From an uncultured Opitutia bacterium (GTDB lineage Bacteria > Verrucomicrobiota > Verrucomicrobiia > Opitutales > Coraliomargaritaceae): a stretch of 64,000 nucleotides of DNA. Positions 45,295 through 46,239 of this stretch are shown here, piece by piece; position 1 is the first letter of the stretch; every line of letters begins with the position of its first letter. The stretch covers positions 310,001 through 374,000 of the forward strand of contig CAKZOI010000022.1 in the NCBI GenBank assembly GCA_937136395.1, written 5' to 3'. The notes under the pieces were generated by a model. The model saw only the letters and a list, made by a program, of their open reading frames with translations. It was not told the origin of the DNA and did no database searches. Made by a program: the position numbers and the translations under genes.

Positions 45295-45363
45295 AGTAAA
45301 AATTTGAGTCGCTTAGAGTGGATTGCCAATACCTAATCGCCCTGACGTAGAGTTAGAGGTCTC

Positions 45364-45506
45364 GTAGCGTGCCGCTTTAGCAAACGTTCGTTTGAGAGGC
45401 GCTGTAGTTCGTTTGCTGAAGCTGCACGCTAAGGGAGGAGGACGTTTGCTGAAGCTGCACGCTACGGATTTCGTGCAAAAACGTTTGCTAAAGCTGCACG
45501 CTATAG
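45364..45506. repeat. REP-type palindromes, left of the RAYT
   Basis: GTAGCGTGCCGCTTTAGCAA (from 45364) pairs with TTGCTGAAGCTGCACGC near 45413-45431; two further half-sites follow (45441-45465, 45481-45504), the three of them translating as RLLKLHA in the RAYT frame. The same unit recurs at 46135-46239. Confidence 0.9.
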
Positions 45507-46138
45507 CTTGCGTTTTTAGTATTAATATTCCAACGCGGGAACGATGGCGCTTACGCTTACCTCATTGGGAGGTCGATGGTCATTGGCACTTTGTGACGAT
45601 TCGCTGTCATGGTAGTTTGCCTGCAGCAGTTAAAGCTAAACTCTACGAAATTCGGCAAACGTTGGGTGCTATAGAGGCTCAGTCTGAAGCGTTCCGACTG
45701 TTGCAACGGCAGTATTTCCTCACTACTGTAAAATATATGGATACTGGTTTGGGTTTTGCCCCTTTTGGGGAGGCGCGCAGTTGTGAACTGTGTTTGAAAG
45801 CTATGAATCAAATGGAAGACGATGGATGGTCGGTTGGAGAGGCCACGGTTATGCCCAACCATGTGCATATGTTGGTGATTCGTCAGGATGAACATTTTTC
45901 ACTGAAGCAAGTATTGAATCGTTTCAAAGGTCGCTCCAGTCGCTGGATCAATCAGGAGCTCGGGCGTTCTGGGAGGTTTTGACAAGAGGATTGGTTTGAT
46001 CGTTGGATGCGCCAAGAAAGTGAGCGCGACAAATGTATCGACTATATTCGCAAGAATCCGGTGAAAGCGAAGCTTGTTGCAGACTGGCGCGAGTATCCAT
46101 GGCGGATTTCGAGCGATTGGATTTCTGAGACATCGTAG
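45392..46138 (+). pseudogene. REP-associated tyrosine transposase (RAYT, IS200-like Y1 family), broken by a TGA
   Basis: Single-strand transposase of the Y1/HUH class thought to move REP palindromes. The core begins at about LPHWEVDGHWHFVTIRCHG; the HUH metal motif is MPNHVHMLV near 45850-45876 and the catalytic helix SLKQVLNRFKGRSSRWIN near 45904-45957. The frame meets TGA at 45980-45982 after GRSGRF; the family continues FWQEDWFDRW, and past the stop the same frame gives EDWFDRW, IDYIRKNPVKAKLV and YPWRIS to TAG 46138. TGG to TGA explains it. No standard start codon lies in frame; the first 40 codons are translated REP. Confidence 0.9.
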
Positions 46139-46239
46139 CGTGCCGCTTTAGCAAACGTTCGTTTGAGAGGCACTGTAGTTCGTTTGCTGAAGCTGCACGC
46201 TACGGGGAGGAGGACATTTGCTAAAGCTGCACGCTACGG
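46135..46239. repeat. REP-type palindromes, right of the RAYT
   Basis: GTAGCGTGCCGCTTTAGCAA (46135) with its complement TTGCTGAAGCTGCACGC (about 46184-46200) and an additional half-site at 46214-46238. The first 70 bp match the left copy at 45364 almost exactly, so the transposase sits between two copies; its stop codon is the first bases of this repeat. Confidence 0.9.

Follow-up and report, generated by a model that had tools for sequence, protein, structure and literature searches.

Within the window, the 64-kb stretch of DNA analysed here, the gene body of a RAYT (TnpA_REP) pseudogene lies at about 45518–46138 on the plus strand, as delimited by profile matches and alignment with relatives, and is flanked by two repeat arrays. 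The left array (45362–45467, no strand assigned) holds a REPIN, that is, two inverted 23-nt REPs (45364–45386 on the plus strand and 45410–45432 on the minus strand), and an extra minus-strand REP at 45443–45465. The right array (46133–46239, again without strand) holds a REPIN (46135–46157, plus; 46181–46203, minus) and a minus-strand REP at 46215–46237. Another upstream REP, with its GTAG degraded to ATAG, adjoins the gene at 45482–45504 on the minus strand. A sequence-only reading had described near-identical palindromic units on both sides of an HUH/Y1 transposase, and this is borne out: the direct repeats 45362–45435 and 46133–46206 are 97% identical and, with one indel allowed, the arrays 45362–45467 and 46133–46239 are the same at 102 of the 107 columns aligned. 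All seven REP half-sites found in the window are at the RAYT locus, where shuffled sequence gives an expectation of zero. The same reading had equated the palindrome with a REP; the repeats are real, but each palindrome comprises two REPs in inverted orientation and is therefore a REPIN.

The open frame spans 45392–46138 and consists of three RLLKLHA units followed by the Y1 domain. The three in-frame half-sites are present as had been noticed, but they are no evidence of coding, because in two relatives (G024 and G011) matching REPs precede the ATG, and relatives start 3′ of the REPs; we regard the stretch as upstream REP DNA that is open by chance. The claim that the stop codon falls within the right palindrome is correct: the TAG at 46136–46138 lies inside GTAGCGTGCC at 46135 and is part of the GTAG of the right REP. 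It cannot be counted as a new feature, as REPs are often located at rayt stops (PMC2817692) and flanking ORFs often receive a TAG stop from GTAG REPs (PMC3733652).

Family assignment was supported by profile and structure matches, in agreement with the identity first proposed. Pfam Y1_Tnp scores 39.1 bits, above its cut-off of 23, and NCBIfam REP_Tyr_transpos gives E 4.8e-22 and 78.4 bits, 1.6 under its cut-off of 80, with X placed at the TGA position. A comparison of an intact relative with solved structures gave E. coli TnpA_REP (4er8, E 0.0062) as the top match, in an alignment that spans the HUH motif together with the Trp and Tyr; through this relative the HUH motif region of the locus, NHVHMLV, is placed at 45854–45874 (plus strand). 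The gene sits between inverted GTAG-tagged REPs, and its cognate REPs are overrepresented elsewhere in the genome (none in the reversed control). An intact catalytic protein is lacking: a TGA lies 5′ of the catalytic Tyr and the start used by relatives is absent. Judged from its sequence, the gene is thus a pseudogene of the RAYT family and not an active member. A Y1 transposase flanked by palindromic ends also recalls IS200/IS605 elements. In contrast to these, the unit is single-copy, the genome's other matches having at most 31% identity, and its palindromes are REPs that are dispersed independently; the NCBIfam IS200 model scores far under its cut-off. The locus shares with the REPtrons of Stenotrophomonas, Pseudomonas and E. 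coli the HUH and Tyr domain with one copy per type per genome, a stop codon that adjoins or overlaps a REP (PMC2817692, PMC3733652, PMC8266576), inverted GTAG REPs in the flanks and further REP copies in the genome. It differs from known REPtrons in that the RAYT is broken, an empty site is available for comparison and the phylum is Verrucomicrobiota.

The palindrome is not unique to this locus. A genome-wide search allowing up to three mismatches returned 27 REP copies, seven at the RAYT locus and 20 distributed over 13 other loci, compared with none in the reversed control, a modest number beside the hundreds of some Stenotrophomonas REPs. REPIN pairs occur elsewhere on C22, the contig that carries the RAYT (near 107.6k, 214.7k and 219.5k), and on C25, C35, C70 and C83, showing that REPINs are dispersed in this genome. 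Like the published REPIN (PMC3116915), these are pairs of inverted REPs whose linker varies and which are dispersed through the genome; here, however, both gene-flanking copies have one common linker and the genome's other copies differ from it, and there is therefore no sign of a recent burst. Contig C22, 12.5% of the genome, holds five of the 13 outside loci (binomial p 0.017, for a test picked post hoc), and several orphan REPs were seen by eye beside tRNA-like sequences or terminator-like hairpins. In G024, all 11 REP matches fall on one 73-kb contig (C104:634–18977), no more than about 18 kb from its RAYT, resembling the local REP clustering reported for marine gammaproteobacteria (PMC2817692).

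The REPIN at the locus folds at −20.4 kcal/mol (z −4.2). A lone 23-nt REP folded on its own was no better than shuffles, and the support for its hairpin comes from covariation. The REPs compared were ten different cognate sequences, chosen by eye from RAYT flanks in this genome and in seven relatives. All pairs of the structure GTAG-stem-internal loop-GC-TTYA-GC-stem are kept across the ten, and two pairs of the outer stem change on both sides while shifted versions are unpaired; these counts are not independent events, since the structure was drawn from the same ten REPs, some of them from one genome. The REPs of intact RAYT relatives, whose proteins are 57–72% identical to that of the locus, are either identical or covarying. 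With an internal loop in an imperfect stem, the REPs here resemble the bulged REPs of the E. coli model (PMC8266576), a resemblance only.

The site itself can be compared with its unoccupied counterparts. The neighbour gene, the SRP RNA gene and dnaX are kept together without a RAYT in three genomes: G001, of the same genus, G024 and G014. From the start codon to the SRP RNA motif there are 147, 157 and 136 bp, respectively, against 1023 bp here. Subtracting the unit of 878 bp, which was measured from the outer edge of one repeat array to that of the other and not fitted to the spacer, leaves 145 bp, matching the empty spacers. The spacer has diverged, so the insertion junctions are not placeable to the base, and as the unit has no second copy its gain is read solely from this between-species comparison. 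The comparison suggests that gene and REPs were gained together as one unit, giving comparative support to what had been a guess from anatomy, that the unit moved as a whole. In G001 (C74), the interval between the SRP RNA gene and dnaX carries about 300 extra bases with hairpin-like repeats of another kind. REPINs have also been gained or lost since the two species split, as one that follows a stop codon in G001 (C87:35682) is absent at the orthologous spot on C70 here.

The unit may have reached the spacer by transposition or by transfer. One version of our explanation has it arriving by horizontal transfer and recombination, without RAYT-driven transposition, and we give this a substantial chance, somewhat short of even. 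The distribution is patchy, with the unit absent from both congeners, and the RAYT tree conflicts with the grouping into genera: a single clade was rejected for g3 (p 0.003), was borderline for g9 (p 0.054) and was not rejected for g30. From the tree, this mismatch would be as compatible with transfer, or with old paralogs followed by losses, as with intragenomic movement. Two observations, neither of them decisive, are set against transfer: REPs of the same type occur at 13 loci besides this one, and the neighbourhood of the gene differs in every relative. Ten members of the RAYT group have no neighbouring genes in common, in a comparison weakened by several contigs that are short on one side and by one member, in G280, being a fragment.

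The RAYT carries two lesions. As the sequence-only reading had proposed, one TGA stands at a family Trp: at 45980–45982 (plus strand) it replaces a residue that is Trp in each of the six relatives examined and that aligns with the Trp of E. coli TnpA_REP. It lies between the HUH motif (about 45857) and the presumed catalytic Tyr codon (46043–46045, plus strand, in YIRKNPVKA), which was placed by alignment with relatives and E. coli TnpA_REP. The start is also missing. Relatives begin just 5′ of the conserved domain, with ATG in five of six and GTG in UBA7441; in G024, G011 and UBA4506 the ATG is three codons 5′ of I/IPTRERW, where the locus gene has AGT, and no ATG, GTG or TTG is present at the relatives' start position. 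Together these support the earlier view that the unit is probably dead, and the RAYT appears to have been inactivated recently, after the unit arrived. Synonymous sites are saturated in dN/dS analysis of the RAYT. G280 carries another broken member of the RAYT group (C64:2506–3073), split into two pieces that overlap, one of them interrupted by a TGA.

A functional RAYT would require the TGA to be an assembly error or to be read through at a low level, and a start at a TTG in the REP array or at ATT. The frame is otherwise open, free of frameshifts and, start apart, one substitution from fully open, which leaves room for a sequencing error at 45980. A TGA followed by C is a leaky stop context, and the TGA of the RAYT is followed by C. 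In-frame TTG codons exist at 45392 and, behind GGAGGAGGA, at 45446. Nevertheless, we consider a functional RAYT improbable, as this reading must accommodate two independent lesions, in start and Trp. TGA ends 12 of the 45 long frames in the window and is thus an ordinary stop here, leading us to reject recoding. SD-like motifs precede the first ATG in only two of the 45 frames, and so an SD-led start within a REP is unsupported. This frequency is lower than chance, with starts that are rough guesses.

That the unit is ancestral at the site and was lost independently elsewhere, leaving clean spacers, is very unlikely: RAYTs of this kind were lost somewhere in the genus, since the congener G001 keeps four REPs without a cognate RAYT, but loss would have had to be precise in three genomes (G001, G024 and G014), and two of these still have group RAYTs elsewhere. 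We are fairly confident that a RAYT/REPIN unit was gained whole in the spacer between the neighbour gene and the SRP RNA gene, and that the RAYT has since been inactivated.

The possibility that intact RAYT copies act in trans found no support. This genome assembly contains no second RAYT of the same subfamily that could serve as a trans-acting paralog; the other Y1 genes show 31% (C70) and 25% (C39) identity to the locus RAYT or no match (C95 and C21). The C39 and C70 genes have repeats of their own. In both of these RAYT-like genes (C39:88228–88737 and C70:57613–58014) the TAG stop comes from the GTAG of their own, different REP-like repeat. At this sequence divergence, none of the other Y1 genes would be expected to act on the REP of this locus.

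We propose that a Puniceicoccaceae-like bacterium (Verrucomicrobiota), with a Puniceicoccaceae MAG as its closest named relative, carries a REPtron at the locus, a RAYT with cognate REP/REPIN arrays. Via transposition or transfer, the unit of ~878 bp would have entered the spacer that separates the SRP RNA gene, itself upstream of dnaX, from a divergent gene, and the RAYT would have been inactivated after its arrival. TnpA_REP binds single-stranded REP hairpins via GTAG and the imperfect stem, and its Tyr cleaves nearby (PMC8266576). By analogy, the intact enzyme would bind single-stranded REP hairpins beside GTAG, cleave via its Tyr and mobilise REPINs. A product without the Tyr could not cleave, and the REPs remaining in this genome are probably orphans.

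A REP at the RAYT stop, a REP-supplied TAG, REP clustering near the RAYT and coevolution are already known (PMC2817692, PMC3733652, PMC8266576), so the locus is a broken RAYT of known type. As a RAYT/REPIN unit it is ordinary; its evidence of unit gain is unusually clear, and the empty site is the part of the finding worth keeping. RAYTs have been reported to be single-copy and apparently unable to mobilise themselves (PMC3116915), and to show no signs of changed location (PMC2817692); in the open-licence papers covered by our search, unit gain is rarely documented for the family. It is conceivable, if doubtful, that RAYTs of this Verrucomicrobiota group still move as whole REPtrons, with the REP arrays serving as transposable-element ends. 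The filled and empty sites with matching spacers, together with neighbourhoods that all differ, make the mobility of the unit directly testable with further genomes or strains. If true, movement of whole REPtrons would contradict the view of RAYTs as immobile domesticated transposases.
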